Source of the DNA: a virus
Length of the DNA stretch: 45,786 bases
IMG/VR virus record: IMGVR_UViG_3300013118_000532
Location: 1-45,786 of that record
Reading direction: 5' to 3' (one strand)
Shown: one piece after another, positions 13,081 to 31,339 of the stretch
Layout: each line of letters starts with the position of its first letter
Position numbering within the stretch: the stretch's first letter is position 1
Made by a program: the position numbers and the translations under genes
The notes under the pieces: generated by a model
The model's input: the letters and a program-made list of their open reading frames with translations, nothing else
Databases searched by the model: none
Told to the model about the DNA's origin: nothing

Positions 13081-14322
13081 ATGCCCTGGGATCTCGTTCG
13101 TCCGTTCAAGCCCGGTGACAACCGGTCCGTCCTTTCTTGCATCCATACCTATGACGAGGTGGTCAGGCCTCGCCTGGACGGTGGCCGATGGCTGGCTACC
13201 GTGCGAACCCTGGGAGCCAAGGACGTGATGGTGCGCCAGCATGGGTTCGAGGTGATCCGCGAGCCGATCCTGGGTGGGGACCCTCCAGCCGCTCTTCGCA
13301 AAGCGAGGGCGCTTGCGCCCCCAGCGCCCCCAGCGCCGCCTGTGGAGGTGAAGCCGGAACCGGAGCCCGAGCCCGAGCCCCAGCGAACCGAAGCTAGCGA
13401 TTGGCCTGCGACCGGCGCGGGCAGCTGGCCCGTGGGGTGCTGGCTGAACCATCGCCACGCGGAGTTCGCCCCGCTTCCGACCCTGCGTCTGCCCGCTCGG
13501 GGCGTCGTTCCGAAGGGCGCCGAGCACCCTGGCAGCTACGAGGACAGTCCCGATCCCATCGGTCAGGACGGCGTGGCGATCGTCATGACCGCCTCTCTGT
13601 GGAGCGCGGACGTGGAGGCCGCGGTGGTCCGAGCCCTGGAAGCCTGTCGATCTTTGGGCCCCCCTTCCGGGGTGGTGCTGGTTCAGAACGGGAACGCAGA
13701 AGCCGCGGCAGCCACGAAGGCCTGGAAGCCCCCGGGCTGGGGGCGCCGGTTCCTGCGCAAGCGGTACAGCTTGAACAGCGGGTTTGCAGCCGCCTGCAAC
13801 CTGGGTGTAGCGGGGGCTCGCAAAGAACCGGACTGGATCCTGTTCACGCAGCCGGACGCAAAGTGGTCTGTGGATGATCTGGGGTCCGCAGCGCAGATCG
13901 CCCATGCCTGCCGGAAGGGGATGGCCCCTGCCGTAGTCGGCCCCAGCGGGGGCCACGTGCTGAACTACGAGAAGGGCGATATCCGCGAGTGGGGCCGAAA
14001 CATCGGCATGGTCGGAGCGGAGCGCCTCGTTCAGTCGGTCGATTTCGTGGGCGGCTATTGGCTGCTTGCTCATCGCTGGGTGGTGGAAGAGCTGAAGGGC
14101 TGGGACCCTGGATACTTCCTGTACTACGAGGACGTGGATTTCTGCCTGGCCGCAGCTGCCAAGGTGGGTGCCATGTCCATCGTCTGGACCGGCCTGAAGG
14201 TGGACCACGAACGGGGTGCCACGATTCGGCACAAGCTGTTCCACCGGAGGGTCTACGAACAGATCCGCAAAGACAGTCGAGAACGGTTCGTAGCTCGCTG
14301 GCAGAGGGGTAGAACGGGATAG
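13081..14322 (+). CDS. GT2-family glycosyltransferase with an N-terminal extra domain
   Basis: A 413-aa protein. Residues 1-80 (LVRPFKPGDNRSVLSCIHTY, VRTLGAKDVMVRQHGFEVI) form a small domain of unknown function. A hinge rich in Pro and Glu follows (about 80-102, PPAPPAPPVEVKPEPEPEPE). From about residue 160 the sequence is a GT-A rhamnosyltransferase-like GT2: GVVLVQNGNAEA, NSGFAAACNLGVAGA, FTQPDAKWS in the DxD position, FVGGYWLLAHRWVVEEL and GYFLYYEDVDFCLAA. It starts one base after the connector gene. A structural-type domain tethered to a transferase would suit modification of a virion protein; this is inference. Confidence 0.8.
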   Translation: MPWDLVRPFKPGDNRSVLSCIHTYDEVVRPRLDGGRWLATVRTLGAKDVMVRQHGFEVIREPILGGDPPAALRKARALAPPAPPAPPVEVKPEPEPEPEPQRTEASDWPATGAGSWPVGCWLNHRHAEFAPLPTLRLPARGVVPKGAEHPGSYEDSPDPIGQDGVAIVMTASLWSADVEAAVVRALEACRSLGPPSGVVLVQNGNAEAAAATKAWKPPGWGRRFLRKRYSLNSGFAAACNLGVAGARKEPDWILFTQPDAKWSVDDLGSAAQIAHACRKGMAPAVVGPSGGHVLNYEKGDIREWGRNIGMVGAERLVQSVDFVGGYWLLAHRWVVEELKGWDPGYFLYYEDVDFCLAAAAKVGAMSIVWTGLKVDHERGATIRHKLFHRRVYEQIRKDSRERFVARWQRGRTG

Positions 14323-14344
14323 CACCCTTTTCCGGGAGGACCCC

Positions 14345-15184
14345 ATGCACGTCCTGATGATCGGAGGCCATGGCGCCCTTGGCAAGGCCATGGTCAGAGA
14401 TCGCGACTGGCCGAGCCCGATCGAAGTGATCACCCCCAGCCGTCGCAGGTATTGCGATGCGACGAAGCTCTACCAGGTGCAACGAGCGATTCGAAAGCAC
14501 GACGCTCAGGCGGTCGTGAACCTGGCCGCCTGGACCGATGTGAACGGCTGCCAGGATGACCCGGAACGAGCGGTCAACGAGAACGCCCTGACGGCCTGCA
14601 ACTGCGCGATCGCCGCGCAGGAAGCGGGGATTCCGTGCGTCCAGGTTTCCACGGATTACGCGATCCCTGTTTGGAAGCATTCGCCAGTTCCCAACCGCGG
14701 AGCCGTACTGAACAGCAGGCTGCAGCTCCAAGAGCTGGGGGTCTACGGGGCTACCAAGCTGATGGGGGAACGCATGGCTTTGGGGGCCGGGGCCATCGTG
14801 GTCCGCGTGGCGCACTTGGACCCCAACAAGGCCAAGCGCTACGAGTGGGTGAACGGCTACGCCCTGGCGAACAGGGAATGGACCGAACGGTGCGCCATGC
14901 GCCTGCTGGCTTTCTTGGGAGAGCTGTTGGATGTTTCGGAGCATGAACGCGAGGTGGCATGCAGGCGCGGGATCTTCCACCTGGGTCCTGAACGAGCTTC
15001 GACCGTCGCCAGCCTGATAGCCGAGCGATGGCCCGACCACCCTGCGTTGGACGTGGTGATCGGCAAGCCCGAGGACATCCCCGGATGGGCCCCCAGGCCG
15101 GACACCCGTTTTGGGAACCTCTGGAAGCCGGGGGATCTGAAGGCGCCCGAGCGAGTCATGCCAGGAGGATGTCATGGGGCGTAG
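14345..15184 (+). CDS. RmlD-like NDP-sugar reductase
   Basis: A 279-aa short-chain dehydrogenase/reductase of the dTDP-4-dehydrorhamnose reductase type. It has the nucleotide loop MIGGHGALGKAM, VVNLAAWTDVNGCQDDPERA (RmlD-type AAYTxVDxAE region), VSTDYAI near residue 103 and the catalytic YGATK at about 134-138. It would reduce the 4-keto group of a dTDP-4-keto-6-deoxyhexose. GGAGG precedes ATG 14345. The stop overlaps the RmlB-like gene by 11 bases. No RmlC epimerase is seen, so the product need not be rhamnose. Confidence 0.8.
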   Translation: MHVLMIGGHGALGKAMVRDRDWPSPIEVITPSRRRYCDATKLYQVQRAIRKHDAQAVVNLAAWTDVNGCQDDPERAVNENALTACNCAIAAQEAGIPCVQVSTDYAIPVWKHSPVPNRGAVLNSRLQLQELGVYGATKLMGERMALGAGAIVVRVAHLDPNKAKRYEWVNGYALANREWTERCAMRLLAFLGELLDVSEHEREVACRRGIFHLGPERASTVASLIAERWPDHPALDVVIGKPEDIPGWAPRPDTRFGNLWKPGDLKAPERVMPGGCHGA

Positions 15185-16238
15185 GGCCATAGTGACCGGG
15201 GCTTGCGGCTTCGTGGGGTCCCATCTGACGGAATTGCTCCTGAACAGGGACTGGGAAGTGGCGGCTGTGGACAACAAGGCTCGCGGGGCGGTCAACTGGG
15301 ATCTGGTAGAGGGCTGGCTCAAGGGGTCGCTCATCAGGGGGACCATTGGGCCATCGAACGATGAAGGTCGGGCAGGAGGGGCTACGAACCTGAGCATAGC
15401 TGCTCAAGAGTTTGAAGGCGGCAAGATACCTGATGTGGTCTTCCACCTGGCCGCGGAGTCCCATGTGGACGCATCCCTGGACGATCCTACGGGGGCGTTC
15501 CGCACGAACGCGGAAGGGACCATGATCGTGGCGCGCTGGTGCGCCCTGAACAAGGTGCCCCTGCTCTACTGCTCCACGGACGAGGTCTATGGGGACTGCC
15601 ACGATCAGGACTCGTCCGAAGAGTCCGATCCGCTGTTGCCCTCTTCCCCCTACTCGGCCGGCAAGGCAGCTGGAGAGATGGCCGTCATGGCGGCAGCTCG
15701 GTCCTTCGGTCTTCGCGCGGTGATCACCAGGGGGACCAACGCTTTCGGGCCCAGGCAGCTGGACGAGAAGCTGATCCCCATCGCCTGCAAGCTGTTGCAA
15801 GCGGGCAAGCAGGTTCCCCTCCACGGTGGGGGCCATGCGATCCGGCAATGGATTCAGGTGGAAGAGTTCGCGCTGGGAATGCTGATGGCAGCGGAGTGGA
15901 TGCTGGACGAGTGGATCCCCTCCCTTTCCGAGGGAGACAACCGGCTGCCTTTGGCCTTCAATTTGGGAGGACCAGATCGCTTCTCGGTTCGCTACTTGGT
16001 GAACGTGCTGGGAGGTTACCTGCGCAAGGCGCATGGGATCGCGGCTCCTGATCCGGCTGGCAGAGACGTGGCCGAACGACCTGGCCAGGATCGCGAATAC
16101 TGGGTCAACAGCCGGCTTGCTCGAACCTGCTTCGGCTGGCAGGCGGACAGAAAGCTGATGAACGACCTGGAGTTGGAGCGATTGCTGGCCGCCTACCCCC
16201 CAGGAGAGGTGAAACTAGCCAGCTTCGTGGAGGAATGA
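15174..16238 (+). CDS. RmlB-like NDP-glucose 4,6-dehydratase
   Basis: A 354-aa extended SDR enzyme: ACGFVGSHLTELLL Rossmann loop, HLAAESHVDASLDDP, CSTDEVYGD containing the Thr-Asp-Glu triad of 4,6-dehydratases, YSAGKAAGE with catalytic Tyr160 and Lys164, and TNAFGPRQ. These fit dTDP-glucose 4,6-dehydratase, which makes dTDP-4-keto-6-deoxyglucose. Two insertions relative to the usual enzyme (about residues 45-75 and 235-250) are visible. No nucleotidyltransferase (RmlA) is in the window, so dTDP-glucose would come from the host or another phage region. Confidence 0.85.
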   Translation: MGRRAIVTGACGFVGSHLTELLLNRDWEVAAVDNKARGAVNWDLVEGWLKGSLIRGTIGPSNDEGRAGGATNLSIAAQEFEGGKIPDVVFHLAAESHVDASLDDPTGAFRTNAEGTMIVARWCALNKVPLLYCSTDEVYGDCHDQDSSEESDPLLPSSPYSAGKAAGEMAVMAAARSFGLRAVITRGTNAFGPRQLDEKLIPIACKLLQAGKQVPLHGGGHAIRQWIQVEEFALGMLMAAEWMLDEWIPSLSEGDNRLPLAFNLGGPDRFSVRYLVNVLGGYLRKAHGIAAPDPAGRDVAERPGQDREYWVNSRLARTCFGWQADRKLMNDLELERLLAAYPPGEVKLASFVEE

Positions 16239-17645
16239 ATGGGGGTTCCCGTCGTCCTGATTTCACCTCCGAATCCCGTACTTCGGGAGCCCAGGGTGGC
16301 CCCTCCTTTGGGGCTGCTCTACCTGCTGGGATATGCGCGGGCTCAAGGGGAGGATGTCAGCGACTGGCACGTCGCGGATCTCAACATGGAGTGCTACCAG
16401 CCGGACGCTCCTGTGGGTCACTGGACTCATGATTTCAGCCTGGAGCGCTGCATGCGCGAGATCCCAGGGGGGGCCGATGTCTACGGGATCGGGTTCAGCT
16501 CGTTGCAGGTGCCGCACGCTCGGGCGATCTGTCGGGAGCTTAGAGAACGAGAACCGAAGGCAGTCCTGGTGGCTGGGGGTCCCCATCCATCTGCATTGCC
16601 GGACGAGTGTCTAAATGAGTCCGAAAGCAATGCTGACGACGGGTTCGATGTGGTGCTGCGTGGGGAGGGTGAGTCCAGATTCTTGGAGTTGATACGCGGA
16701 AGCAGAACCGGAGCATGGCCTGTCGGGGTTTGGGAAAGACCTCCACCCATGGCGATGGATCAGCTTCCTATTCCCGCAAGGGACGTGATCGACCTGTCCC
16801 GCTACGTGCGCCGGATCGATGGGATGCCTGCTACGAACATAATCACCAGCCGGGGCTGCCCCGGTCGGTGCTCGTTCTGTCAGCAAGAGTCTCTCTGGGG
16901 TCGAGGCTTGCGCCTGCACAGTCCCCAGCGCGTGCTGGAAGAGGTGGACACGATCCGGGAATGCAATGGGATCAAGAACCTGCTGTTCTTGGACGATTCG
17001 CTCACCTGCCGGAAGCCCGGAGACATGGCTGCGATAGCCCAGGGGTTGGGCCTGCGGGGCGCGCTCTGGCGAGGTTGGACCCGAGCGGATCTCTGCGTGC
17101 GTCCTGGGGACGCCCAAATGCTGCGGACCATGGAGGCCAACGGCTGCCGAGCCCTCTGCCTGGGGGTGGAAGCAGGGACCGACAAGGTGCTGCGCGCCAT
17201 GGGCAAGCGGACCACGATGGCGAAAATAGACAAGGCGATCCGAGCTGTGGTTGATGCCGGCCTGGACTGCCGGGTCTCGTTCATGGTGGGCTCTCCGCAG
17301 GAAACCTGGGAGGACGTGGAAGCTCTGGTTCGGTTCATCGAGGGGCACAGGGATCGGATCTCGGACTGGATCCTGTCCATGTTCAACCCGCTGCCCGGAT
17401 CTCCCTGCTGGGAGAATCCCGATCTGTATGGGATGGTCATCGACAGGGAGCGAGCTCGCAAGGACGGGTATCGGGGCAGCTTCGTGGTTGGGGGCGAAGA
17501 GGTGGCCGGAGGGGGCTACCATCGCTATCGCGGAGGGCCTGACCAGGAAGAGCTGGCGGCAAGGCATGCTTATGTCCAAGAAGCTCTCCTGCGGCTCTGC
17601 CCGCGGGATCGGATCGGGGTGACCATCGGGCGAAAAAATGCATAG
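16239..17645 (+). CDS. B12-binding-type radical SAM enzyme
   Basis: A 468-aa protein of the BchE/P-methylase-like class. The N-terminus (PPNPVLREPRVAPPLGLLYL, a DVYGIGFSSLQVPHA strand-helix and LVAGGPHPSALPDE) is a cobalamin-binding-like domain. The radical SAM core starts at TSRGCPGRCSFC (Cys207, Cys211, Cys214), followed by LFLDDSLTC, GCRALCLGVEAGTDKVLRAM and SFMVGSPQETWED. Such enzymes methylate unreactive carbons or rearrange substrates. Substrate unknown; in this setting sugar C-methylation or a deoxygenation is plausible, but this is inference from neighbours. Confidence 0.8.
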   Translation: MGVPVVLISPPNPVLREPRVAPPLGLLYLLGYARAQGEDVSDWHVADLNMECYQPDAPVGHWTHDFSLERCMREIPGGADVYGIGFSSLQVPHARAICRELREREPKAVLVAGGPHPSALPDECLNESESNADDGFDVVLRGEGESRFLELIRGSRTGAWPVGVWERPPPMAMDQLPIPARDVIDLSRYVRRIDGMPATNIITSRGCPGRCSFCQQESLWGRGLRLHSPQRVLEEVDTIRECNGIKNLLFLDDSLTCRKPGDMAAIAQGLGLRGALWRGWTRADLCVRPGDAQMLRTMEANGCRALCLGVEAGTDKVLRAMGKRTTMAKIDKAIRAVVDAGLDCRVSFMVGSPQETWEDVEALVRFIEGHRDRISDWILSMFNPLPGSPCWENPDLYGMVIDRERARKDGYRGSFVVGGEEVAGGGYHRYRGGPDQEELAARHAYVQEALLRLCPRDRIGVTIGRKNA

Positions 17646-20121
17646 TGAAAGGGTGTTTCTCGTCGTTGTAGATACCCTTCGGTATGCTGAGGCGGTCAAC
17701 TGGCTTTCTCTTTTGAGGCGCCCGCATCGTTGGTATGGAAACGCTTGGGCTGTCGCTCCTTTCACTCTGCCAGCCATGGCCAGCATGGTATCCGGGCTTC
17801 TTCCCGAAGAGCATCGTCTTTGGGAAAATTGGACCGCTGCGAGCGTCTGCAGAAAGCAATCCCGAGTCAAGACGACCATCGCGCATGATTTCGATGGGGA
17901 TGCCGCAGCTGTTTCGGGTGGGGGTTTCGCCATTGGTACGAACTTTGGCTATGGGCAGGGCTTTAGGAAGTGGATGGGGATCGGGCCGCAGGTCGAATTC
18001 CGCAGGTGGGCATCAACAACGAAAGATCGCTTTCTGCTCATGCATAGCTTCGAACTGCACAACTATTTCCAAGAACGAGTCGATACGTTCAACGGCAAGC
18101 CGCTGTTTTCCGAAGGGGCGGCGCACCCGACAGACATCATGGTAGCGAGACGGCAGCGGCTGAATGCGGTCGAGAAGCGCCTATGCGTTCTTCTGGACGA
18201 AAATCCAGGAGCAAGAATTTTCATTACAGCGGATCATGCTGAAGGGTTTTCGCCCAACCACTGCCTTGGGCACGGGTCGGGGCACAACCCATCTGCCGAG
18301 CTGCTGCACATCCCTTTGATCGAATTTGGCCCCCACCTGAAGAAAATCAAGATCGATACGCGACTGGTGCCCCAGCACCGCTTGCGTCAGCTTCTGACCA
18401 CTGGCAACGTGGATCAAAGCCCGGTGACCGTCAGATGGCCGTGGGGAAGACGTGGCGAACGTTCCGAGATGGCGATTTTCCATTTGTGCGATACCGGAAT
18501 CGCAGTGGAGTGGTCAGCAGGAGGAAAGATGAAGTCCAAATGGTGGGAAGCAGATACGAGACGATACATCAGGAGAAACCACCCGAATGCAACAGCTATG
18601 GGTGGCGTCATGCAGCAAAACAAAGATGTGGTGAGCCCAGCGTGGCGCACCTATCTGGACGCTGCCTTCTCCGATGCGCGTCCTGATGGGTTTCTCATGG
18701 AGTTCGGGGTTCACAAAGGTCGGTCCATTCGATGGCTGTCCGAACGCGCCCCGGCTGGGGGGCTGGTTCATGGCTTCGATTCATTCAGGGGCCTTCCAGA
18801 AGACTGGGAAGATCAGAATTCAGGCGGGACTGTCAGAGCCGGTCAGTTCAATTTGGACGGCAAGCCGCCCGAGGTGCCAGAGAACGTCAAGTTGCATGTG
18901 GGTCTGTTCGAAGAATCAGTGGACGCCTTTCTTCTCAATCATCCTGGACCCGTCAGGTTCGCTCACATCGATTGCGACCTGTATTCGTCCACGATGGACG
19001 TGTTGACCGCCTTGGGGGATGCGAACAGGATCGTTTCCGGGACCGTGCTGGCTTTCGATGAGTTCTGGAACTTCTCGGCCTGGCGCAAGCATGAATGGCT
19101 GGCGTTCACCGAATGCGCGGAGCGCTACGGCTGGCGCTGGCATGTGACTCGTTACCTGAAGCACGGATATCAAGCTGCCGTCCGAATCGAGGAGGTGGTT
19201 CCTCGTGCGGTTGTCATCGATGAGGAGCGCGGCATGGCTACGGAAGACAGAATACGCCTTCTGAAAGAAGAGATCGCCATCTGGTCGGAGGACCAGTTCA
19301 AGGGGGATGCGCAGGTGCGCCGGAAAGCTCACCAGGATCGATGGGAGCGCCTGCATCGAGATTTGAAGATGGAACGCGGATCGCTGAAGCTGCCCCCAGG
19401 CCCGATCTGCGTGGTGGGTTGCGGGCATGGCTGGGTGGAGCTGGAAGTCGCGGAGGACTACCAGGACCGAACCGTGATCGCTACGGACCTGTTCATCCCG
19501 GATCGCGAGCCCCCGGAGTGGGGGGCCGTCAAGATCGGGTCCGCTGACAGGGTTCGATACTGCCCCGGAATCGATGCCCAGCGCCATCTGCCGTTCGTCC
19601 AGCCTCCCGGCTATGCCCTGATCGTAGCGGTTTCCGTGCTTCATCATTTCCCAGACCTGGAAGCAGCTGCGGACACCTTCCTGCGCTCTTTGGCCCCTGG
19701 GGGCCTTGTCCTGGTCCAGGAGTACGCAGGGGGCAACCGCCTGTGTGCGGACGAGCGCCGATATCGGGTTGCGGAACGGATCTGGCAGGCCCTTCCAAAG
19801 AGCTACCGGCTGCGAGACGATGGGACCGAACAAGAGCGAATCTTCAAGCCCGACCCCGATCGGGTGGGCTGCGGCTTCGAATCCATCCGATCCCAGGACG
19901 TGCGACCCGTGTTCTCCGGGGCCTTCGAAGTGGTGGCCGAGCATAGCGCCAGGCCGATCTCCGGTTACCGCGCCATCGTCTGGGGCGAGCATGGAACCCG
20001 CAGGCTGGACCCCGGCGTGGATCGAATGCTTGACGCCTTCGAGGCGATCATGATGGAGGAAGGATGGCTCTCAGGAGAGGACTGGACCGCGTTGCTGCGC
20101 AAGCCCGGCGCTGGCGACTGA
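17638..20121 (+). CDS. Three-domain fusion: sulfatase-like hydrolase, TylF-type methyltransferase, class I methyltransferase
   Basis: An 827-aa protein with three enzyme domains. Residues 1-290 are alkaline-phosphatase/sulfatase-like: VVVDTLR metal site, APFTLPAMASMVSGLLP with a Thr where sulfatases have Cys or Ser, and ITADHAEGFS with HGSGH. Residues about 328-520 are TylF/macrocin O-methyltransferase-like: MEFGVHKGRSIRWL, GFDSFRGLPEDW, HIDCDLYSSTMDVL, FDEFWN. Residues about 585-827 are a class I methyltransferase: ICVVGCGHGWVELE, VSVLHHFPDLEAA, LAPGGLVLVQE. In-frame ATGs with good ribosome sites stand before the second (18529) and third (19234) domains. The first domain has lower GC (31 of 60 at 18001-18060), suggesting a separate origin. 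TylF enzymes methylate sugar hydroxyls; the natural substrate here is unknown. Confidence 0.8.
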   Translation: MHSERVFLVVVDTLRYAEAVNWLSLLRRPHRWYGNAWAVAPFTLPAMASMVSGLLPEEHRLWENWTAASVCRKQSRVKTTIAHDFDGDAAAVSGGGFAIGTNFGYGQGFRKWMGIGPQVEFRRWASTTKDRFLLMHSFELHNYFQERVDTFNGKPLFSEGAAHPTDIMVARRQRLNAVEKRLCVLLDENPGARIFITADHAEGFSPNHCLGHGSGHNPSAELLHIPLIEFGPHLKKIKIDTRLVPQHRLRQLLTTGNVDQSPVTVRWPWGRRGERSEMAIFHLCDTGIAVEWSAGGKMKSKWWEADTRRYIRRNHPNATAMGGVMQQNKDVVSPAWRTYLDAAFSDARPDGFLMEFGVHKGRSIRWLSERAPAGGLVHGFDSFRGLPEDWEDQNSGGTVRAGQFNLDGKPPEVPENVKLHVGLFEESVDAFLLNHPGPVRFAHIDCDLYSSTMDVLTALGDANRIVSGTVLAFDEFWNFSAWRKHEWLAFTECAERYGWRWHVTRYLKHGYQAAVRIEEVVPRAVVIDEERGMATEDRIRLLKEEIAIWSEDQFKGDAQVRRKAHQDRWERLHRDLKMERGSLKLPPGPICVVGCGHGWVELEVAEDYQDRTVIATDLFIPDREPPEWGAVKIGSADRVRYCPGIDAQRHLPFVQPPGYALIVAVSVLHHFPDLEAAADTFLRSLAPGGLVLVQEYAGGNRLCADERRYRVAERIWQALPKSYRLRDDGTEQERIFKPDPDRVGCGFESIRSQDVRPVFSGAFEVVAEHSARPISGYRAIVWGEHGTRRLDPGVDRMLDAFEAIMMEEGWLSGEDWTALLRKPGAGD
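18519..18531 (+). promoter_or_regulatory. Internal ribosome binding site and in-frame ATG before the TylF-like domain
   Basis: A perfect AGGAGG (18519-18524) lies four bases before ATG 18529, which is in frame with the 17638 gene (codon 298). Initiation here would yield a 530-aa two-domain methyltransferase without the hydrolase domain. The start coincides with the inter-domain boundary. Confidence 0.5.
19222..19236 (+). promoter_or_regulatory. Internal ribosome binding site and in-frame ATG before the third domain
   Basis: GAGGAG (19222-19227) lies six bases before ATG 19234, in frame with the 17638 gene (codon 533). A product from here would be 295 aa and contain only the C-terminal methyltransferase, with a helical lead-in (MATEDRIRLLKEEIAIW). 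Confidence 0.4.
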
Positions 20122-20474
20122 ACGGGACCACGTACCCATCCGATCGGGCTCCTGAAGGAGCTGAACGGTTGCGCGAACGTCTACCCAGGGTTCGGGAGCT
20201 GCTGGCCGGCTTGCTGGTTCCCTGGAGCGCTCAGCTGTTGAACCCCAAGAAGGGAGACGTGCTGGTGGTTCGGGGTCAGATCCGATCTGTGCGCTTGGCC
20301 GATCTTCAGCGCCGATGGCGGTCCGCTGGGGGCTCCACGATCGTGCTGTTGCCCCGCAGCTGCCGGGTCCACATGGAACCCCGCGCGGCGTTTCGCGAGG
20401 ACAAGGGGTATGAAGGGGAGGAGAGCGGCAGTCGTCTTTTCTCCGGGCTGCCCGAGGAGGGTTGCCGCAGATGA
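20064..20474 (+). CDS. Hypothetical protein in the glycan island (up to 136 aa)
   Basis: The reading frame begins at ATG 20064 inside the end of the preceding gene (58-base overlap, GGAGGA close upstream). A shorter version from TTG 20169 (101 aa), preceded by GAAGGAG, is also plausible. The C-terminal half has a strand-rich pattern (KKGDVLVVRGQIRSVRLADL, then GGSTIVLLPRSCRVHM) and a tail rich in charged residues. I recognise no family. Its stop overlaps the start of the next methyltransferase gene. Confidence 0.55.
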   Translation: MALRRGLDRVAAQARRWRLNGTTYPSDRAPEGAERLRERLPRVRELLAGLLVPWSAQLLNPKKGDVLVVRGQIRSVRLADLQRRWRSAGGSTIVLLPRSCRVHMEPRAAFREDKGYEGEESGSRLFSGLPEEGCRR

Positions 20475-21247
20475 CCCAGGAAGCTCTGGTCAGCCTCGCG
20501 AAGGTCTATCATCTGGACATGGGCAAGCGGTCCGCGGATCTGGGGCTCTGGGCTTCCTTGATTGCGGACGAAGCCGAGTGCTTGGGGCGGCCGATCTACG
20601 TGGTGGAAGTGGGCTGCGGGGACGGGCGAGTTCCTGATGGGCTGATGGTTCGGGCTCTGAACGAACATGTCGTTCGCTGGGTCGGCATTGACAGTGACCC
20701 AGAGATGGTCAGAGCGTTTCGCAAGCGTTGCGGTTCGTGGTGTCATGCGATTGAGGGGAATGCCACCAACAGGCACGCTTGGCTTGAAATGCGTAAGCAC
20801 ATCATGGGTTTGGCAGATGTGGTTTTGATTCCATACGCCACACTGTTCCTAGTTCCTCATGTCGATCAAGGTCGGCTTTTGCGCATGGCCGCGCTTGCTT
20901 GCCGACCTGGAGGCTTGATCGCCGCAGAGGTATTCGAGCCCCGATGGACCGAGACTGGAATCCGTGAGGCCGAAGCTCCGTGCGGCCCCAAGCACAACGG
21001 GCAGACCATGGTTCGGCACACTGTTTATCGCGTGGATGGGGACGCCAGGACGACCAGAGCGACCCGCAGGTATGGAATTGTCCGGGGTGAATGTCAGTAT
21101 CGGGTGGAAGAGATCATCTACTGGCAGCAGTTGGCAGATCTGCGCTTGATGGCGATGCGGGTCGGCTTGAACGCGGTACGGACGATCTGCAGCGAACAGA
21201 ATTCGCTGGTCCCCGAAGGGTACGATCTGCTGCTGGGGCGAGCATGA
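20471..21247 (+). CDS. Class I SAM-dependent methyltransferase
   Basis: A 258-aa protein starting at ATG 20471, ten bases after GAGGAGG and overlapping the previous stop. Motif I is VVEVGCGDGRVPDGL, motif II the WVGIDSDPEMVRAF acidic strand, and the post-motif segment MAALACRPGGLIAAEVFEP is typical of small-molecule methyltransferases. The middle (20700-21200) has lower GC than its neighbours. Target unknown; a sugar hydroxyl or carboxyl is likely from context. Confidence 0.75.
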   Translation: MTQEALVSLAKVYHLDMGKRSADLGLWASLIADEAECLGRPIYVVEVGCGDGRVPDGLMVRALNEHVVRWVGIDSDPEMVRAFRKRCGSWCHAIEGNATNRHAWLEMRKHIMGLADVVLIPYATLFLVPHVDQGRLLRMAALACRPGGLIAAEVFEPRWTETGIREAEAPCGPKHNGQTMVRHTVYRVDGDARTTRATRRYGIVRGECQYRVEEIIYWQQLADLRLMAMRVGLNAVRTICSEQNSLVPEGYDLLLGRA

Positions 21248-23081: not shown

Positions 23082-23707
23082 TCTGCGGAACCGTGCTTTG
23101 CTTGGGCGACTCCCTGACGGACGGGGCTCGGGCTCCTTCCGGGCTGGGCTACCCCGAGGTCTTGGTAGACCTGCTGAACGAACGTAGCCATGCTACCCAA
23201 TGGGCCTGTCTGAATCGCGGGATCAGCGGGCAGGTCACCTGGGAGATCCTGCGAAGGACACCAGGAGCGGTGCGCGAGCTGGCAGGGCTGTTCGGGGCGA
23301 AGGCTTGCGTAATCCTGACAGGCACGAATGACAGCAAAGGGGGCGGCGATGGGGAGAAGGGGCTGGTCCGTTGGGAGAAGCTCTATCGGCAGATCGTCCA
23401 CTGGCCTCTGCGGTATGGAATCCCCACCTGGCTCTGCACGTTCCCGGCGGTGAGTCGCGAAATGCCCGAGTTCACGGAAGCGTCCGAGGCCTGGCTGTCC
23501 GCTGCGTCTATGGCGGTGCGAAAGGTGCGAAACGATTTCGACGGAACAGCCGGCCCTGACGGTCGACCTGTCGGGGTGGGACTCGTGGAACTGAACGGAG
23601 TGATCGGGCTGAAGAATCTTGTGGATGGGGTCCACCTGACAGCGACCGGCTACGAGCTGCTTGCTTGCGCCGTCGCCAGAGAGATGATCCCATGGACGAA
23701 GCCATGA
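23078..23707 (+). CDS. SGNH/GDSL-family hydrolase or acyltransferase
   Basis: A 209-aa protein with the four SGNH blocks: CLGDSLTDG (Ser12), NRGISGQVTWE (Gly), ILTGTNDSKGG (Asn) and DGVHLTATGYELLA (Asp183, His186). The start overlaps the preceding stop by four bases. There is no signal peptide, so it acts in the host cytoplasm or is packaged. Members remove or transfer acyl groups on glycans, which suits acetylation editing of the putative glycan. Confidence 0.85.
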   Translation: MICGTVLCLGDSLTDGARAPSGLGYPEVLVDLLNERSHATQWACLNRGISGQVTWEILRRTPGAVRELAGLFGAKACVILTGTNDSKGGGDGEKGLVRWEKLYRQIVHWPLRYGIPTWLCTFPAVSREMPEFTEASEAWLSAASMAVRKVRNDFDGTAGPDGRPVGVGLVELNGVIGLKNLVDGVHLTATGYELLACAVAREMIPWTKP

Positions 23708-24468
23708 GAGATCCGTTTCCCATGGAAGCCCCGGCATGGGCTCTTACCAGGCGCAGTCGAGGGGACGGCTTTTGGACCGTCTTGCCCATGATCAGAGACG
23801 AAGGCTCGACCGTGATCGAGGCTGGAGCCCGGATCGGGGATCTGGCTCGCAGGGTCGCCGAAGAGCGAGGGGAGCCCGTGGTTCCATGGGCTGCAATGGA
23901 GAGCAATGCGATCCTCTACCGAGTGATCCAGCGGTTCCTGCCGGAAGGGGCTTGGCCGATTCTGGGGCCTGCGGATACTGCCATGGCCTGGAGCTTCGCG
24001 CGGCAGGCGATCGGAGGGGCAGCCTCCCTGGTCACATTCCTGGGTTCGTCCATCTACGAGCTGCCCCACGATCGGCAGGTGGCCGCGTTGCAGCTGGCCG
24101 GAGCTTCCCTGCGCCCTGGGGGTCGGCTGATCTTGCGAGCGTTCGTGCCTGCACCATGGTCCGAGACCAGCGGCAGGATGGAGCGATTCCAGGAACCGAC
24201 GAAAATGCCGGAACCGTTCAACTGGATGGGGTGGGGCTGCCGCACGATCTACGATATCGACAGGGCTGGCAGGCAGACGACGGCTTACCGAACCTTCGGA
24301 CCTGCTGGAGAAGGGGAAGCCTTGATTCGGGAGATGGAGCACCGCGTGGAATACATCCACTGGCGGCGCCCTGCAGAGTTCCCGACCATGATCGATCGCG
24401 CGGGGCTCGTCCTGGACGGCATGGCGAACGATGGGAGCTGGCTTACCCTGACAGCATCTGCTCCGTAG
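23704..24468 (+). CDS. SAM-dependent methyltransferase-like protein
   Basis: 254 aa from ATG 23704, whose ATGA overlap with the SGNH gene matches its neighbours; ATG 23692 in the same frame is an alternative. The fold pattern is a class I methyltransferase: STVIEAGARIGDLARRV (motif I, weak), SLVTFLGSSIYELPHDRQVAAL, GASLRPGGRLILRAFVP. The C-terminal half has RQTTAYRTFGPAGEGEA and HWRRPAEFPTMI. Motif I departs from the usual GxGxG, so activity is less certain than for the other methyltransferases. Its 3' end overlaps a convergent small gene by 26 bases. Confidence 0.65.
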   Translation: MRDPFPMEAPAWALTRRSRGDGFWTVLPMIRDEGSTVIEAGARIGDLARRVAEERGEPVVPWAAMESNAILYRVIQRFLPEGAWPILGPADTAMAWSFARQAIGGAASLVTFLGSSIYELPHDRQVAALQLAGASLRPGGRLILRAFVPAPWSETSGRMERFQEPTKMPEPFNWMGWGCRTIYDIDRAGRQTTAYRTFGPAGEGEALIREMEHRVEYIHWRRPAEFPTMIDRAGLVLDGMANDGSWLTLTASAP

Positions 24469-24592: not shown

Positions 24593-24601
24593 GGTGTATT
24601 T

Positions 24602-24814
24602 TCAGGCTCCAAAATTCGTAGTGAAGAGGCCGCCCAGTTCCTTCAGGTCAGCCGAGTCCCGCACGATCCTCTTGCTGTGCGCGCCGCAGTTTCGGCACTT
24701 CCAGCTTGCGGCCCAGTCGTGCTGCCATCCCATGTCGCTCTTTTCGTGGACAGCACTGGCGCTGCACTTGCAGGGGGCGACCTTCGCGTTTCCATTTTCG
24801 AGGTAGCGGGCCAT
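24602..24814 (-). CDS. Small putative zinc-binding protein (70 aa)
   Basis: Starts at ATG 24814 after GGAAGGAG; an in-frame ATG at 24835 would add seven residues. The sequence has CKC and, 26 residues on, CRNC, with WQHDWAASWKCRNCGAHSKR between and after, a zinc-ribbon-like pattern. It is one of three minus-strand genes in the window and is transcribed against the surrounding operon. Its promoter repeat (24830-24871) is shared with the gene at 31340-31663. A regulatory or moron-type role is possible; function unknown. Confidence 0.65.
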   Translation of the reverse strand: MARYLENGNAKVAPCKCSASAVHEKSDMGWQHDWAASWKCRNCGAHSKRIVRDSADLKELGGLFTTNFGA

Positions 24815-24829
24815 GGTCTTTCTCCTTCC

Positions 24830-24871
24830 TTCCATACTTAGAATATAAACCCGTATGGGTTAGAAAGCAGG
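24830..24871 (-). promoter_or_regulatory. Shared promoter/operator repeat, copy 1
   Basis: Read on the minus strand, a TATATT -10 (24847-24842) is preceded immediately by the inverted repeat AACCC-ATAC-GGGTT (24861-24848) and a weak -35 at 17 bases. The 42-base stretch matches 31690-31731 at 35 positions, including the palindrome core ACCC-4-GGGT and its exact position relative to the -10. A palindrome between -35 and -10 is a classic repressor site. It precedes the zinc-ribbon gene. Confidence 0.6.
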
Positions 24872-24938
24872 AAAAAAGGGGGAAGGAATACACTTTTTTT
24901 CTGATCTGTTCAGGGGTACAACAAGGCAGAGGTGCCCC

Positions 24939-25435: not shown

Positions 25436-25482
25436 TACCCGTGCTGGGCGAACAGCTAACCCAGCCAGGGTAAGGAGCGAGC

Positions 25483-25710
25483 ATGGCAAAGGCGATACCG
25501 GACGACGGGGATCAGCGGGGCGTCCGTGTCGTGCTGAACTTCGACATCCGCCACATGGTGGACGGGGATCGCATGATGGTCTGTCCCGAGGTGGCCGCTC
25601 TCTGGGTCTCCAAATTCCAGGAAACCCTGCGCACCCTGGAGCGCCGCAAGAAGGTCCTGCATAGCTACGGTCCGAAGGAAAAAGGGGAGGCAGATGACGG
25701 GAGCGCATGA
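25483..25710 (+). CDS. Small hypothetical protein (75 aa)
   Basis: ATG 25483 follows AAGGAG. The sequence (VRVVLNFDIRHMVDGDRMMV, then VAALWVSKFQETLRTLERRK) suggests a beta-hairpin followed by a helix. No family recognised. The end overlaps the next gene by 17 bases, indicating co-translation with the phosphodiesterase-like protein. Confidence 0.6.
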   Translation: MAKAIPDDGDQRGVRVVLNFDIRHMVDGDRMMVCPEVAALWVSKFQETLRTLERRKKVLHSYGPKEKGEADDGSA

Positions 25711-26752
25711 GCACAAGCCCAGGCATCGGATCGCGGTGATCGTGCTGGACGGCCTGGACTGGGAGTGGACGAACGCCCACATGGACGAGACCGCTCCGCT
25801 CTGGCGGCTGGCCGAGCTGGGATGCCATGCGCCCTTGCTGGCTCCTGCCCCACCGTTGACCCCGACCAGCGTTGCCGCCCTTCTCTGCGGTCGGCACCCG
25901 GAGGGGTTCGGCTGGACCCGTGGGTCAAATACGGCCATGTTCGCCACGTCCCAGGATCTGATCCGCAGCCGGCCCTGGACGAAGGCAGCTGCCAGGAACG
26001 GGATCCGAACGGGGCTCTGCAATGTGCCGATCACCTGGCCGGGGTTCAGCCCCGGTAAGTGGTGCTGGCTGGTGTCCGGTTACCCCATGAGCGCCTGGCG
26101 CCGTCGGGACAATCGGACGCGCCCCTGGTTCTCGCCTCCGGGCCTGGGGCCCAGCCTCAGCTCGTTCGGCTATCCGATCGGGACCATCGCGAACGATTCA
26201 GGTCCAGGAGGAACGAAGGACGCGATCGGGCTGGCTCGGGCGGAAGCTCGCGTGGCGACCTGGGCTGCCGAGAAGGCCCCCCCGGTGGACGTGCTCTTTC
26301 TGTGGCTGCGGGCCACGGATAACGCGGGGCATCATCATTGGGGCACGGATCGCTATGCGGAGGTGGTGAAGCTGGCCTGCGATACCGCGGAGCGCGCGGC
26401 CAGCTTCGCGGAAACCGCCATCGTGATCAGCGATCATGGGTTCGACGCCTTGGACGACCCGAGGTGCGAATCCTATCGGGCCAGCGAGCACGGTCCGTTC
26501 GCAGCTGCGGCCAAGCTGCCTGGGGGCCATGCGGAAGAGGGGGTTCTGTTCGCCGCGGGTCAGCACATACACGCTCGGGGCCTGCTGCCCGAGCAGAAGC
26601 TGGTAGAGGTGGCCGGTGGCCTGTTCGACCTGCTGCAGGAAGCGCCGCCCCCTGGGGTGGTCGCTGCCGGGCCGGACTGGTCCGCCCCGGTTTCGAACCA
26701 GGAAGCCGACGTGGTGCGCGAACGCCTGCGGGCGTTGGGGTATGTCAAATGA
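25694..26752 (+). CDS. Alkaline-phosphatase-superfamily protein, type I phosphodiesterase-like
   Basis: A 352-aa protein with the metal- and nucleophile-site pattern of type I phosphodiesterase/nucleotide pyrophosphatases: AVIVLDGLDW (metal Asp), PPLTPTSVAALLCGRHP (Thr nucleophile region), LFLWLRATDNAGHHHWG (metal Asp/His) and IVISDHGFDAL (metal Asp-His), with a further SEHGPF. No signal peptide or membrane segment, unlike extracellular relatives. It could cleave or transfer phosphodiester-linked groups such as phosphoglycerol on a glycan, or hydrolyse sugar nucleotides. GGAGG lies shortly upstream of ATG 25694. Confidence 0.78.
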   Translation: MTGAHEHKPRHRIAVIVLDGLDWEWTNAHMDETAPLWRLAELGCHAPLLAPAPPLTPTSVAALLCGRHPEGFGWTRGSNTAMFATSQDLIRSRPWTKAAARNGIRTGLCNVPITWPGFSPGKWCWLVSGYPMSAWRRRDNRTRPWFSPPGLGPSLSSFGYPIGTIANDSGPGGTKDAIGLARAEARVATWAAEKAPPVDVLFLWLRATDNAGHHHWGTDRYAEVVKLACDTAERAASFAETAIVISDHGFDALDDPRCESYRASEHGPFAAAAKLPGGHAEEGVLFAAGQHIHARGLLPEQKLVEVAGGLFDLLQEAPPPGVVAAGPDWSAPVSNQEADVVRERLRALGYVK

Positions 26753-27747
26753 GGCTAATCGAGCAACGCAGGTTCCCTCGCATCGGACATCCATGGGAAC
26801 TGGGCAAGCCCTCTACCAGCGGGGGCTATCAGCGCCCCAGACGGCCTCAAACCGTTCTGCGTTCATGGACGAATCGGAGGTGCGAACCAAGCGCCCCCCT
26901 GGTGACCGTGATCGGAACCGTCCGCAACGAGCGCCGAGCCTGGGAGCGATCCTGGAAGGTCTGGGAAGCGCAGCACCTGCCCGCTTGGCTGACCGTGGAG
27001 TATCTGGTTCTGGACGAAGGCAGCAGCGACGGGATCGGGGATGTGATCGCCAAGCTGGCCGACGCCGGACGGTCCATCAGGCATGTGTTGATGAGACCGG
27101 CCGGGGATCCGGGAGAGCGCACCTGCACGCTCGCGTTCAACGCGGCCCTGAGGCAGCTGGTCCGATCCCCTCTGGTCATGTTCCAGTGGTGGGATCGGAT
27201 CCCCGGCAGCTTCGAACACCTGGAGCGCCTGGTCAGCCCGCACGTATTCGGGGCTCGCAGCCGGTTGGGAGGGTTCGCCACATCCGCGGTCAGCCGTCAT
27301 GTCGGGGGCCGTTCCAGCATGGAAGCGATGAGCCCCGCGCAGCTGGAAGCCGAGTTGGCCCGCGTGGACTGGGAACGAGACCCCAGGGAACTGGCGAAGC
27401 TCGCTGGCAAGATCGGAGCGCACTGCAAGCCCGGCAGGTCTTCGGAGTCGTCCGGCTTGGTGATCCCGACCGCGGAGCTGATCGCCCTGGGCGGCTGGGA
27501 CGAGCGCTATACGAACCGGGCCAGCTTCGTCAATGTGGAGCTGTTCCGGCGCCTGTTTCAGGCTGGCCTGTCCGTACTGTTCGTGCCCGAGCCCCATGGG
27601 GCGAACTATCATCAGTCGCACCCGTGCCCGACCGGCAGGGTTCGAGATTTCGGGTTCCTGCGGGAGCCCGAGATCAAGCGCAACCCGCACGGGTGGGGCG
27701 AGACGCCTATACTGGATGTCTACCCGCCCCCGGAGGTGCTCCCATGA
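26749..27747 (+). CDS. GT2-family glycosyltransferase
   Basis: 332 aa from ATG 26749 (four-base overlap with the upstream stop). A basic N-terminal tail of about 50 residues precedes a GT-A domain: LVTVIGTVRNERRAWERSW, VEYLVLDEGSSDGIGDVI (the GT2 'D-x-S-x-D-x-T' strand), FNAALRQLVRSPLVMFQWWD in the place of the DxD strand, LIALGGWDERYTNRASFVNV and a His-rich end (ANYHQSHPC). The DxD motif is not canonical. The stop overlaps the head-closure gene start, physically coupling a transferase to a structural gene. Confidence 0.78.
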   Translation: MRLIEQRRFPRIGHPWELGKPSTSGGYQRPRRPQTVLRSWTNRRCEPSAPLVTVIGTVRNERRAWERSWKVWEAQHLPAWLTVEYLVLDEGSSDGIGDVIAKLADAGRSIRHVLMRPAGDPGERTCTLAFNAALRQLVRSPLVMFQWWDRIPGSFEHLERLVSPHVFGARSRLGGFATSAVSRHVGGRSSMEAMSPAQLEAELARVDWERDPRELAKLAGKIGAHCKPGRSSESSGLVIPTAELIALGGWDERYTNRASFVNVELFRRLFQAGLSVLFVPEPHGANYHQSHPCPTGRVRDFGFLREPEIKRNPHGWGETPILDVYPPPEVLP

Positions 27748-28334
27748 TGCCCCCTCTTTTCGATCGTCAGGTCGCCATCAATCGTTCTACCGCTCTGATC
27801 GTGGACCGCGTGGCAGCAGCTGCCAGCGTAGCTATTGACCGGCAGCCCGTCCGAGCCAGCAAGGTTCAGGTGGAGGTGTTCGACCTTTCCGGGTCCGGCA
27901 CGGTGACCGTGGGGGGCACTCGCGAGGACGGCAGTACCGGCAGCGAGGATCTGGACTACACCGCATCGGACGTGCTGGAAACGGACTACGCCTATACGGC
28001 GCTGGACGCGCTGACCACCTCCGGGCTTTCTGGAACCGAGCTGCTGGCTACGGCCATCGGAAGGGACGGTTCCCCGCAGCTGGAAGAGTACGAGGTGGCT
28101 GCCAGTCAGCCCGCGGCTCTCGTAGCGGATGGCGGGTCCTGGCCTACGGGGGTTCCCGGGTCCCACGAGATCCAGCGCGGAACCTGGCTGCTGATGTGGA
28201 GCGCCATCTACACGCCCCGATCCGGGGACGTGCTTACTTTCAGCGGGCAGCGATGGCGGGTGGAGCGCCTCCATACGCTGCCCGATCCGAGCCAGCCAAG
28301 CCACTGGGAGCTGACCTGCCGCCTGATCGGGTAG
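27744..28334 (+). CDS. Head-closure (stopper) protein
   Basis: 196 aa from ATG 27744, eight bases after CGGAGG. The N-terminal half is polar and beta-rich (VQVEVFDLSGSGTVTVGG). The C-terminal part, YTPRSGDVLTFSGQRWRVERL followed by SHWELTCRLIG, is the beta-barrel pattern of head-tail joining/closure proteins (GDVI...G..YRV...). It lies between two glycosyltransferase genes, separated from the connector gene by about 14.7 kb, whereas these genes are normally adjacent. That separation defines the island. Assignment is moderate because only the C-terminal half is diagnostic. Confidence 0.6.
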   Translation: MMPPLFDRQVAINRSTALIVDRVAAAASVAIDRQPVRASKVQVEVFDLSGSGTVTVGGTREDGSTGSEDLDYTASDVLETDYAYTALDALTTSGLSGTELLATAIGRDGSPQLEEYEVAASQPAALVADGGSWPTGVPGSHEIQRGTWLLMWSAIYTPRSGDVLTFSGQRWRVERLHTLPDPSQPSHWELTCRLIG

Positions 28335-28369
28335 AGCTGGGAGCTGCCGCACCTGCAGGGGAAAACCTT

Positions 28370-31291
28370 ATGGAAAACGAAGCTTCGGAGCATGCTTGCG
28401 CTCCGTACGACTATGCCGTGATAGTGCCTACCGTAGCGGACCGGGACACGCTCCTGCCCTTCCTGCGGAACTTGGGCCCCAGCATGGCTGGGGACGATGT
28501 ACGGGTCTACCTAGTGATCAACCCCGTGGGGGATGGGGCTTGCACCAGGGAAGAGCGAGCTACGGTGGTCCGCAGGGCTATGGGCGACATGCCCCCCGAG
28601 ATGGCCGCTACGGTCACCTGGTTGGAGGTGGACGCGGCCAAAGAGCTTGGGGGCCCCTCTCGACCCGTGGGCTTCGCGAAGGCTTGCAACCTGGGGCTGC
28701 AGAAGGCCCTGGCCGATGGGGAGCCCTATGTGGGCGCCATCCTGATCAACGACGACGCGGTGCCTGCGGCCGGTTGGCTGGACGGTCTGCGGGAAGCGTT
28801 CGAGCCCGAGCATGTGCGTCTGTGGGGCGGGGACCAAGAGGACGGCAAGCCGGTTCCGGTTCCTACGGACGAGCTGGGGCCCGTCGGGATCGTGGGGCCG
28901 GTCACCAATCGCTGCGCCGGCATCCAGCAGGTGAAGCTGGGGCCGGAAGACCAGCAACGAGCGGCCCAGGATTCGCACGGGTTCGCGGGCTCCTGGCGAG
29001 CTTCCAATCCGGGGGCCCATACCCTCGCGGATTTCATCTCCGGGTTCTGCATGGCGATCTCTACGGACTGCCTGCGCGATTTGGGGCAACCTTCGTCAAG
29101 CACGGACGGTCGATTCAAGCTGCTGGACGAGGGCTTCGGGATCGGGGGCTACGAGGACAACGAGCTGTGCGCCCGAGCGGCTGAAGCCGGCTGGCGATGC
29201 GTGGTGGCCGGGGACACCTTCGTCTATCATCGCGGGCACCGCACCTTGGACCGCCACTTCCCAGGCCAGAACCGTGGGCTGGCGAACCTGCCGAAGTACC
29301 TGAAGCCGGTCCATCAGAAGAAGAGTTTGGTCGCGTGCTACCGCTGGCGCCCCCAGTACCTCAACGATTTTCACATGATGCGGGGGTCATTGTTCAGGAC
29401 CGCGGAGGTGGCAGACGGGATCGCGATCCTGGTGACCGCCAACCCGCTGGAGATGACGAAAGCCTACGATGTGCAGGCGGTTCATCGGACCCTGGCCCCG
29501 GAAGACCAGCGGCTGCTTCAAGCCTGCAGCAATGCCAGCCCCAAGAAGGTGGCGAAGGCGGTCAAGCGTTGGGTCGGAGAAACCCTGGCCAGGGTGAAGG
29601 ACAGCCGAGAGCCCGAGGTGCGGGTGCGCGTTTGGGATTGTCAGCATCAAGAACGGGACGAACGGAACGCCGCTTTGGCTCTTGCCGAGGGGATGGGACC
29701 GGACTGGATTCTGGTAGTCGAGCCCTGCGAGGCGCTGGAGCCCCGTGTGGACCGGCCCCTTCTGGACCAGCTGATGGCCCACCCGGATCCGCTCGTGCAG
29801 GCTTACGATCTGTCGGTCCTAATCATGTGGAGCCAGGATATGTGGAGGGCCGATCCGCCTTGGACCGGCCCTGGGTATACGGGGGCTCCCGGAGGGGTGC
29901 GGTTGTTCAAGGTTCATGGGGAAACGCCCAACCAGCGTAGGATCATTGAACAGCGCCGGATCATGGACGGGGACCCGCAGACCGGGGACGGCTGCAGCTG
30001 CGCCCCTCACTTCGGGCCCATGGCGGTCCGCGTGGCGAACGTGCGCCTGTTTGATTTCGGGCTGGTCCGCAAGCCCGATCGGGAGATCGAGTTTCAGCGC
30101 ACCGGGGGCGCTCACCTGACCCGCGAAGAGTGCGCCACCCTGTCCCCGATCGTGGCCCAGAACGGGATCGGGTTTACCATGCTGGTCCATGGGGGCGAGC
30201 GGCCCGAGGATGTTGGGCGCTGGCTCGACAACGTGCACGGGCTGACGGACGCGGCGGTCCTGGTCTGGACCGACCCCTGGGACGAAGATCGCCAGGGAAG
30301 CGGGCCGTCTGCGGACCTGCAACGGATCGCCAGCTGCTACGGGGCTCTCTGGGTTCGGAAGGAGCTGCAAGAGTGCCGATCGTTCGCCGAGTGCCGGAAC
30401 GCCGGGCTGGAGGCCCTTCGGTTCGTGGGTCGCCCCATCGGGTTGACCGGGCCTGCCGCAGCTGCTGACGACGGACGCCCCCTGGGCTGGGCGTTCGTTG
30501 CCGACCCGGACGAGTGGTTCGGGTCCCCTTGGGCCGAAGCCTGTGCGCTGCGCCGGATGGCCGACTGCTCGGATAGCTATGGGTTCATGTTCAGGTTCTG
30601 GAATCATCGGCCTGACGGTGGCCTCCCGAATGTCAGCGAGACGATCCGGTTCATTCGTTTGGACCCGGATGGAGTCATGCGGTACGAGGGCCGCGTGCAT
30701 GAGACCTTCGATGTGGCTTTGGCCGAAGTTCGGGATCGCTTGAACTGGCACCCCACGATCCGGGCCGCTCCCTTCCAGCTGCACAACAGGGGGACCGCAC
30801 TACCTGACACCGAGGCGGAAGCGAAGCTGCGATTCTACGATACCCTGCTGCTGGACGAGCTTCGGGACCGACCCACGAACAGTGGAGCCTGGGTCTCGCT
30901 GGCTTTGAGCTACGAGAACGAAGGCCGGGATCAGGACGCCCTAATCTGCCTGGAGCGCGGGTTCGCCGTGGCTGGGAAGGACAGCTACCTGGCAGTTCGA
31001 GAGTTGGCCTGGTGGCACCTTCGCAGAGCCCGGATCCTGATGAGTGAGGCCAGCAAGCGGGTCAGCCCCGGGCATCCCTTTCAGCGGTTCATCGAAGAGG
31101 CGTACAAGTGGCTTTCCGAGAACGCTGCGGACGTGCCTCGGATCGGCTTGGCCCGAACCGGAGATCCCCAGCCGGACGCTTGCCCCGACCTTCCCCCCTT
31201 CGACCATCTGATGGTCCAGGACGAGAGCGAAGTGCCCGCGAGCGTGGACGACAACGGGAGGGCCCTGCTGCAGTTCGGTAGCGAAGAGTAG
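28370..31291 (+). CDS. Multi-domain GT-A glycosyltransferase (973 aa)
   Basis: Starts at ATG 28370 after AGGGGA. Residues 14-290 are a complete rhamnosyltransferase-like GT2: YAVIVPTVADRD, GFAKACNLGLQKAL, AILINDDAVPAAGWL, SGFCMAISTDCL, GIGGYEDNELCARAAEAGW, VYHRGHRT. Residues about 350-560 contain a second, partial GT-A pattern (RDERNAALALAEGMGPDWIL). Residues about 600-830 hold a third (IGFTMLVHGGERPEDVGRWL, FAECRNAGLEAL, WAFVADPDEWF with DPDE as metal site, YEGRVHETFD). A TPR-like helical tail follows (GAWVSLALSYENEGRDQDAL). It resembles TPR-linked transferases that build glycans on proteins. A strong terminator follows the stop. Confidence 0.78.
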   Translation: MENEASEHACAPYDYAVIVPTVADRDTLLPFLRNLGPSMAGDDVRVYLVINPVGDGACTREERATVVRRAMGDMPPEMAATVTWLEVDAAKELGGPSRPVGFAKACNLGLQKALADGEPYVGAILINDDAVPAAGWLDGLREAFEPEHVRLWGGDQEDGKPVPVPTDELGPVGIVGPVTNRCAGIQQVKLGPEDQQRAAQDSHGFAGSWRASNPGAHTLADFISGFCMAISTDCLRDLGQPSSSTDGRFKLLDEGFGIGGYEDNELCARAAEAGWRCVVAGDTFVYHRGHRTLDRHFPGQNRGLANLPKYLKPVHQKKSLVACYRWRPQYLNDFHMMRGSLFRTAEVADGIAILVTANPLEMTKAYDVQAVHRTLAPEDQRLLQACSNASPKKVAKAVKRWVGETLARVKDSREPEVRVRVWDCQHQERDERNAALALAEGMGPDWILVVEPCEALEPRVDRPLLDQLMAHPDPLVQAYDLSVLIMWSQDMWRADPPWTGPGYTGAPGGVRLFKVHGETPNQRRIIEQRRIMDGDPQTGDGCSCAPHFGPMAVRVANVRLFDFGLVRKPDREIEFQRTGGAHLTREECATLSPIVAQNGIGFTMLVHGGERPEDVGRWLDNVHGLTDAAVLVWTDPWDEDRQGSGPSADLQRIASCYGALWVRKELQECRSFAECRNAGLEALRFVGRPIGLTGPAAAADDGRPLGWAFVADPDEWFGSPWAEACALRRMADCSDSYGFMFRFWNHRPDGGLPNVSETIRFIRLDPDGVMRYEGRVHETFDVALAEVRDRLNWHPTIRAAPFQLHNRGTALPDTEAEAKLRFYDTLLLDELRDRPTNSGAWVSLALSYENEGRDQDALICLERGFAVAGKDSYLAVRELAWWHLRRARILMSEASKRVSPGHPFQRFIEEAYKWLSENAADVPRIGLARTGDPQPDACPDLPPFDHLMVQDESEVPASVDDNGRALLQFGSEE

Positions 31292-31297
31292 AACGAG

Positions 31298-31325: not shown

Positions 31326-31339
31326 ATAGTCTGATCTTG

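Follow-up and report, generated by a model that had tools for sequence, protein, structure and literature searches.

A probable virion-protein glycosylation module in the head-tail region of uncultured tailed phages

Introduction

Why should a tailed phage keep genes for making, transferring and methylating sugars in the midst of its head and tail genes? The question is raised by a linear IMG/VR virus record, 45,786 bases long (63% GC), analysed here over its whole length and referred to as the window. Few cases of phage virion glycosylation are known, and they tend to be regarded as add-ons. The original prediction for the window was that an island of enzymes builds an O-methylated oligosaccharide on a virion protein, perhaps the capsid or the tail tube. 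Our analysis makes it likely that the island is a module for glycosylating a virion protein, which is fixed in the head-tail region of uncultured tailed phages and enlarged in this one. This reading builds on the genes present, their homologues and order, the domains predicted for their products and the loss of a motif.

Results

The island and its structural flanks

From left to right the window carries preQ0/7-deazaguanine genes, a portal gene, a scaffold-like gene, the major capsid protein gene, a head-tail adaptor, the island, the tail tube and the tape measure. The structural genes that matter here are the following (GT, glycosyltransferase; the slot is the interval between adaptor and head closure).

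10801–11784: major capsid protein (MCP)
12525–13079, plus strand: head-tail adaptor, bounding the slot on the left (phrog_442, E 6e-17; homologue in 8 of 8 MCP relatives)
27744–28334, plus strand: head-closure-like gene, bounding the slot on the right (7 of 8 MCP relatives and 43 of 45 GT loci have a homologue in this position)
31773–32300, plus strand: gp10-like tail completion/Neck1 gene, next after the large GT (phrog_5, 3.8e-5)
33018–33575: tail tube, assigned by position, length and the order common to relatives
34445–38341: tape measure, assigned on the same grounds

The island lying between the adaptor and the gp10-like gene is real: its flanks match phrog_442 and the Neck1/gp10-like family, its genes carry coding signal, and their coordinates and order had been given correctly. 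The head-closure gene had been placed inside the island, and rightly so; 27744–28334 has no match in PHROG, and its homologues in relatives occupy the head-closure position. The island comprises the following genes.

13081–14322, plus strand: slot-first protein (N-terminal ~100 aa and a Pro/Glu linker) fused to a GT2 domain
14345–15184, plus strand: RmlD-like NDP-4-keto-sugar reductase (PF04321 3.6e-24; 1vl0 1e-9)
15174–16238, plus strand: dTDP-glucose 4,6-dehydratase-like SDR (PF01370 2.5e-47; 1bxk 1.2e-36; TIGR01181 below its cutoff)
16239–17645, plus strand: B12-binding radical SAM enzyme (PF04055 6.8e-22; PF02310 2.9e-13)
17638–20121, plus strand: 827-aa fusion of a possible sulfatase/phosphatase-like N-terminus (weak), a TylF/Methyltransf_24 domain and a Methyltransf_23 domain
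20471–21247, plus strand: SAM methyltransferase (PF13649 2.4e-7; start set by the coding model)
21244–22242, plus strand: GT-B-like glycosyltransferase, weak (PF13439 E 0.0037, below cutoff)
22200–23081, plus strand: SAM methyltransferase (PF08242 4e-12)
23078–23707, plus strand: SGNH hydrolase/esterase (PF13472 5e-13)
23692–24468, plus strand: fifth methyltransferase-like gene (homologous to 20471–21247, E 9e-14)
25694–26752, plus strand: alkaline-phosphatase-superfamily phosphodiesterase-like enzyme (PF01663 2e-13)
26749–27747, plus strand: GT2-like by eye only (PF10111 E 0.11)
28370–31291, plus strand: large GT of 973 aa, with three GT-A domains (~15–320, ~320–600, ~600–810) and a TPR tail

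Most of the enzymes named in the original prediction were recovered. Pfam identifies both expected sugar-nucleotide enzymes, the radical SAM enzyme and the SGNH hydrolase. Five methyltransferase domains had been counted; four have Pfam support (two in 17638–20121, one each in 20471–21247 and 22200–23081), and the fifth, at 23692–24468, has no Pfam match and stands by its homology to 20471–21247. One of the two proposed phosphatase-superfamily domains, at 25694–26752, held up; for the other, the sulfatase-like N-terminus of 17638–20121, there are marginal matches only. Of the GT domains, three lie in 28370–31291, and there are weaker candidates at 13081 and 21244–22242. The GT2 domain of 13081–14322 scores below the Pfam cutoff (PF00535 E 0.0096) and can be aligned to the first domain of the large GT (hhalign E 9e-5). 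The candidate GT at 26749–27747 was not confirmed, profile comparison lending no support to its weak PF10111 match. The presence of dTDP-sugar enzymes beside methyltransferases fits an O-methylated glycan, as far as gene content can suggest one.

Several features of the surrounding sequence are recorded here. The ~480 bases that separate the large GT from the gp10-like gene (31292–31772) lack a clear plus-strand gene; the best candidate within them is a 107-aa minus-strand ORF at 31340–31663. In relatives these two genes almost touch, unlike in the window. A minus-strand 70-aa ORF with a CxxC...CxxC zinc-ribbon-like pattern lies at 24602–24814, amid an otherwise plus-strand operon, and the adjoining 24815–24938 shows little coding signal. 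At the left end, 339–5977 holds QueE-, FolE-, QueD- and QueC-like genes, ParB-like genes and two paralogues (2003–2947 and 4455–5309), which are 32% identical, receive no name from Pfam or NCBIfam, and look DpdA-like by context. This region probably encodes 7-deazaguanine DNA modification.

One gene order in 45 viral contigs

By MCP, the window has eight relatives: seven contigs at 52–66% identity and one near-identical contig (99.98% identical). The adaptor is present in all of them, and the head-closure-like gene in all that reach far enough. Over most of its length 28370–31291 is homologous to a ~950-aa gene that follows head closure in these relatives. IMG/VR viral contigs were then scanned with a four-sequence GT alignment, gene context not being used for finding loci, and 45 distinct loci were obtained, whose 40 cleanly called GT proteins fall into 28 clusters at 90% identity. 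Gene order at these loci was read by profile searches on six-frame translations.

The order is almost invariant: MCP, adaptor, slot (mostly with an SDR), head closure, GT, gp10-like gene, a second tail-completion-like gene and tail tube. The gp10-like gene directly follows the GT at 42 of the 42 loci that have downstream sequence. Head closure precedes the GT at 43 of 45, the exceptions being L073, which starts near the contig end, and L036, where no match was detectable; a few loci have additional genes between the two. Since the GT-bearing contigs span a GC content of 0.33–0.72, the arrangement is not a recent insertion common to close strains. Its constancy suggests, from gene order, that the whole phage group may glycosylate its own particles. 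In one contig a portal homologue (L010:3070–4503) lies on the strand opposite to MCP and adaptor, which is unusual in a head operon.

Isolates yielded no counterpart. Queries by tblastn with three different members of the GT family found no match in 50,697 phage records, a collection that may lack some of the known glycosylated phages, and megablast of window positions 12–34 kb against phages found none either. By tblastn, portal and MCP reached only distant isolates. A scan of genome contigs with the GT returned partial matches only, mostly to the first GT2 domain.

The enzymes might instead alter the host surface polysaccharide, so as to exclude superinfection or convert serotype, with timing as the sole reason for their place in the late operon. 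Surface-modifying GTs are known in phages, and O-antigen clusters commonly contain methyltransferases and enzymes of the RmlB/RmlD type. The fixed position speaks against such a role: the GT keeps throughout to the stretch from head closure to the gp10-like gene, and exclusion genes would sit oddly in a late lytic operon. Nor do the hallmarks of a Wzx/Wzy pathway appear. As originally noted, no flippase, polymerase or other membrane-embedded surface-polysaccharide protein was recognised in the island, which encodes no multi-span membrane protein, and the flippase family PF13440 and the initiating polyprenyl-phosphate transferase family PF02397 are each found in 0 of 31 records including the window, some of which are fragments. 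We therefore regard a host-surface function as improbable.

A slot with variable contents

The slot differs in size between these phages. Among 27 distinct relatives, adaptor and head closure lie a median of 2,680 b and at most 6,350 b apart; the window's slot measures ~14.7 kb. In the MCP relatives this gap (2.6–6.4 kb) holds an NAD-dependent sugar-nucleotide SDR, and most slots at GT loci have an SDR as well, some together with SGNH, methyltransferase, sulfotransferase or aminotransferase genes. Additional genes were seen in the slots of L003 (a TylF-type and a second methyltransferase), L008 (a methyltransferase) and L030 (a second SDR and a DegT aminotransferase). Among 77 proteins from the slots and head-closure-to-GT gaps of 19 relatives, SDR models matched 17, methyltransferase models five, GDSL models two and sulfotransferase models two; by these family counts, decoration genes vary around a stable core. 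In three groups of GT-bearing relatives (L062/L063/L070; L065/L068/L077; L076) the slot lacks an SDR, a point against the virion-glycan reading. At L069 the SDR is placed after head closure.

A sulfotransferase-like slot gene (L038:6674–7297) has homologues in L039, L047, L055 and L059, and a sulfated virion glycan is a possible consequence. Since the slots also contain a dUTPase (L031:5335–5760) and an MT-A70 gene (L030:17833–18378), slot genes need not all belong to the glycan.

The conserved frame is still visible in the window. The N-terminus of 13081–14322 matches the small protein encoded first in the slots of other phages (slot-first family, E 1.9e-6), the SDR at 15174–16238 is the slot gene common to most relatives, and the SGNH hydrolase at 23078–23707 is matched by an L060 slot protein (E 2e-5) and has homologues in relatives' slots. 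Because relatives keep a compact slot and the GT in the same order, the island is best read as an expanded version of a compact, conserved head-tail glycan module. The synteny search traced the core GT to the same place in 45 contigs; among the window's extra genes, the 827-aa fusion (17638–20121) had the near-identical contig as its sole relative. The part of these extra genes in the same glycan is accordingly judged from their position, a further point against the virion-glycan reading.

A three-domain glycosyltransferase with a TPR tail

The protein encoded at 28370–31291 had been taken for a double GT. It now reads as three GT-A domains followed by a helical TPR tail, with approximate boundaries, a reading drawn from the repeated strand-helix order, conserved motifs and a predicted structure. 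With four sequences the AlphaFold model reached a pLDDT of 45; with a 27-sequence alignment it became confident (pLDDT 83.9, pTM 0.85). The DD pair of domain 1 and the D-x-D-E of domain 3 are each kept in 27 of 27 aligned sequences. Domain 2 carries the motif S-[IV]-D-x-D-E in 26 of 27; the exception is the window protein, which reads VVEPCE and has also lost the neighbouring LHCGN motif. Owing to these two losses the middle domain is probably inactive, in the window phage only.

The GT-A fold alone says nothing about the acceptor, the fold being common to GTs with other acceptors. Over domain 3 the GT profile matches GmaR (E 7e-5), and at positions 802–860 it matches TPR proteins; both matches are modest. 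The top Foldseek match of the model is K4 chondroitin polymerase (K4CP, E 4e-12), and the peptide GTs SunS/ThuS are also among the matches. In VIA-align, polypeptide GalNAc-transferases, WrtF and RmlT score at Z about 17, mainly over model residues 10–623, so that the fold comparison covers domain 3 and the TPR tail incompletely. The model shows no antirepressor domain and no long C-terminal helical domain past the TPR region. Within open-licence papers we found no description of a family with three GT-A domains and TPRs.

Two further readings of the large protein have to be weighed. The first is that it has lost catalysis and serves the head-tail joint structurally or as a chaperone, with the nearby enzymes as unrelated cargo. 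Its invariant place between head closure and the gp10-like gene would suit such a part, and the loss of the middle DxD in the window indicates that the catalysis of one domain is dispensable. The retention of DxD-type motifs in domains 1 and 3 throughout the alignment, and in domain 2 in all sequences but one, argues for catalysis, as do the linked SDR and decoration genes, and we consider a purely structural role very improbable.

The second is that the GT glycosylates phage DNA. The window phage has preQ0 genes (339–4458), and phage GTs that act on DNA do exist (PMC13216743). Against this, the TPR tail and the nearest matches favour protein or peptide acceptors, and QueC occurs in only 4 of 32 related records, many of them fragments. 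The thymidylate-synthase family is the usual source of hydroxymethyl pyrimidines; PF00303, its family model, was found in 0 of 31 records, a count that includes fragments and is no proof of absence. DNA as the acceptor is the least probable of the readings considered.

Discussion

In favour of a virion glycan stand the invariant context of the GT, its likeness to protein and peptide GTs, the kept metal-binding-type motifs and the association with SDR and decoration genes. The fixed synteny, the similarity to protein GTs and the absence of flippase and lipid transferase matches from 31 records thus back the general idea of a glycan on a virion protein. The more specific proposal of the capsid or tail tube as acceptor found no support: Ser/Thr-rich acceptor tails were looked for at the ends of MCP and tail tube and found on neither protein.

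From the gene complement we infer the following course, including acceptor, sugar identity, reaction order and benefit (for example shielding or stability). The SDR pair, together with host precursors, would supply an activated 6-deoxyhexose. The TPR tail of the 973-aa GT would hold a virion protein while the GT-A domains attach the first sugar and then extend it, in the cytosol and without a lipid carrier. Slot enzymes may then decorate the glycan: methyltransferases, the B12-radical SAM enzyme and the SGNH hydrolase here, a sulfotransferase or aminotransferase in relatives. Such accessory enzymes may be exchanged between phages. In the window phage the extra slot GTs may take over the step of the DxD-less middle domain, and the predicted product would be a virion protein bearing a methylated 6-deoxyhexose glycan. 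A bolder version makes glycosylation of the virion an indispensable, core part of head-tail assembly in a large uncultured lineage, performed by an undescribed protein-GT family with three GT-A domains and a TPR arm for the acceptor and diversified by cassette exchange in a single slot; we put it forward tentatively, rating its prospects somewhat below even.

Since 45 contigs have the core GT at one and the same position, sugar coating may be built into the body plan of phages that have no cultured member in the searched collection. The conserved SDR suggests a class of sugar, and a single polypeptide with three transferase domains and a TPR arm is a concrete enzyme for study. One slot with turnover of methyl, sulfate and amino decoration genes amounts to a natural experiment on the purpose of virion sugars.

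Comparison with known systems

The nearest isolates by MCP, PaMx28 and RcRudolph (27–30% identity), share the order of MCP, adaptor and connector with the window; in both, however, the adaptor adjoins the next closure/connector gene, leaving no slot, and there is no GT.

Parallels to the large GT are found in other settings. Listeria GmaR, which transfers GlcNAc to flagellin, a filament protein, and carries TPRs (PMC9638930), likewise has a GT2 domain followed by TPRs and matches over domain 3, but it combines one GT domain with an antirepressor domain, in contrast to three GT-A domains and no visible antirepressor domain in the window protein. K4CP from E. coli K4 also places tandem GT-A domains on a single chain; it has two of them and no TPR, its long-range superposition is poor (rmsd 14.7), and the domain folds alone are common. 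PBCV-1 A064R, a three-domain viral transferase, extends and O-methylates a 6-deoxyhexose-containing capsid glycan (PMC9614988). It resembles the large GT in being virus-encoded and three-domained, a likeness so far of general layout only; it belongs to a eukaryotic virus and is built as GT, GT and methyltransferase, whereas the window has three GT domains and a TPR tail, with methyltransferases as separate genes.

Among phages, the structural cluster of mycobacteriophage Corndog (cluster O) includes an O-methyltransferase gene and three transferase genes, suspected of modifying the capsid (PMC4351075). The window similarly combines O-methyltransferase-type and GT genes within the virion structural cluster, yet Corndog has four small genes between portal and protease in place of a three-GT-domain TPR protein and an SDR around head closure. 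In mycobacteriophages, glycans on the C-termini of capsid and tail-tube proteins have been reported by Freeman 2023, as far as its citation in PMC12619734 relates. GT genes inside the structural cluster, typical of such phages, are found at nearly all our loci; the capsid and tube of the window differ from what that citation conveys in having no comparable tails. By analogy, the window system appears to be like the Corndog, mycobacteriophage and A064R cases, and to be set apart from them by a different GT family, one without an isolate, and by its fixed slot.
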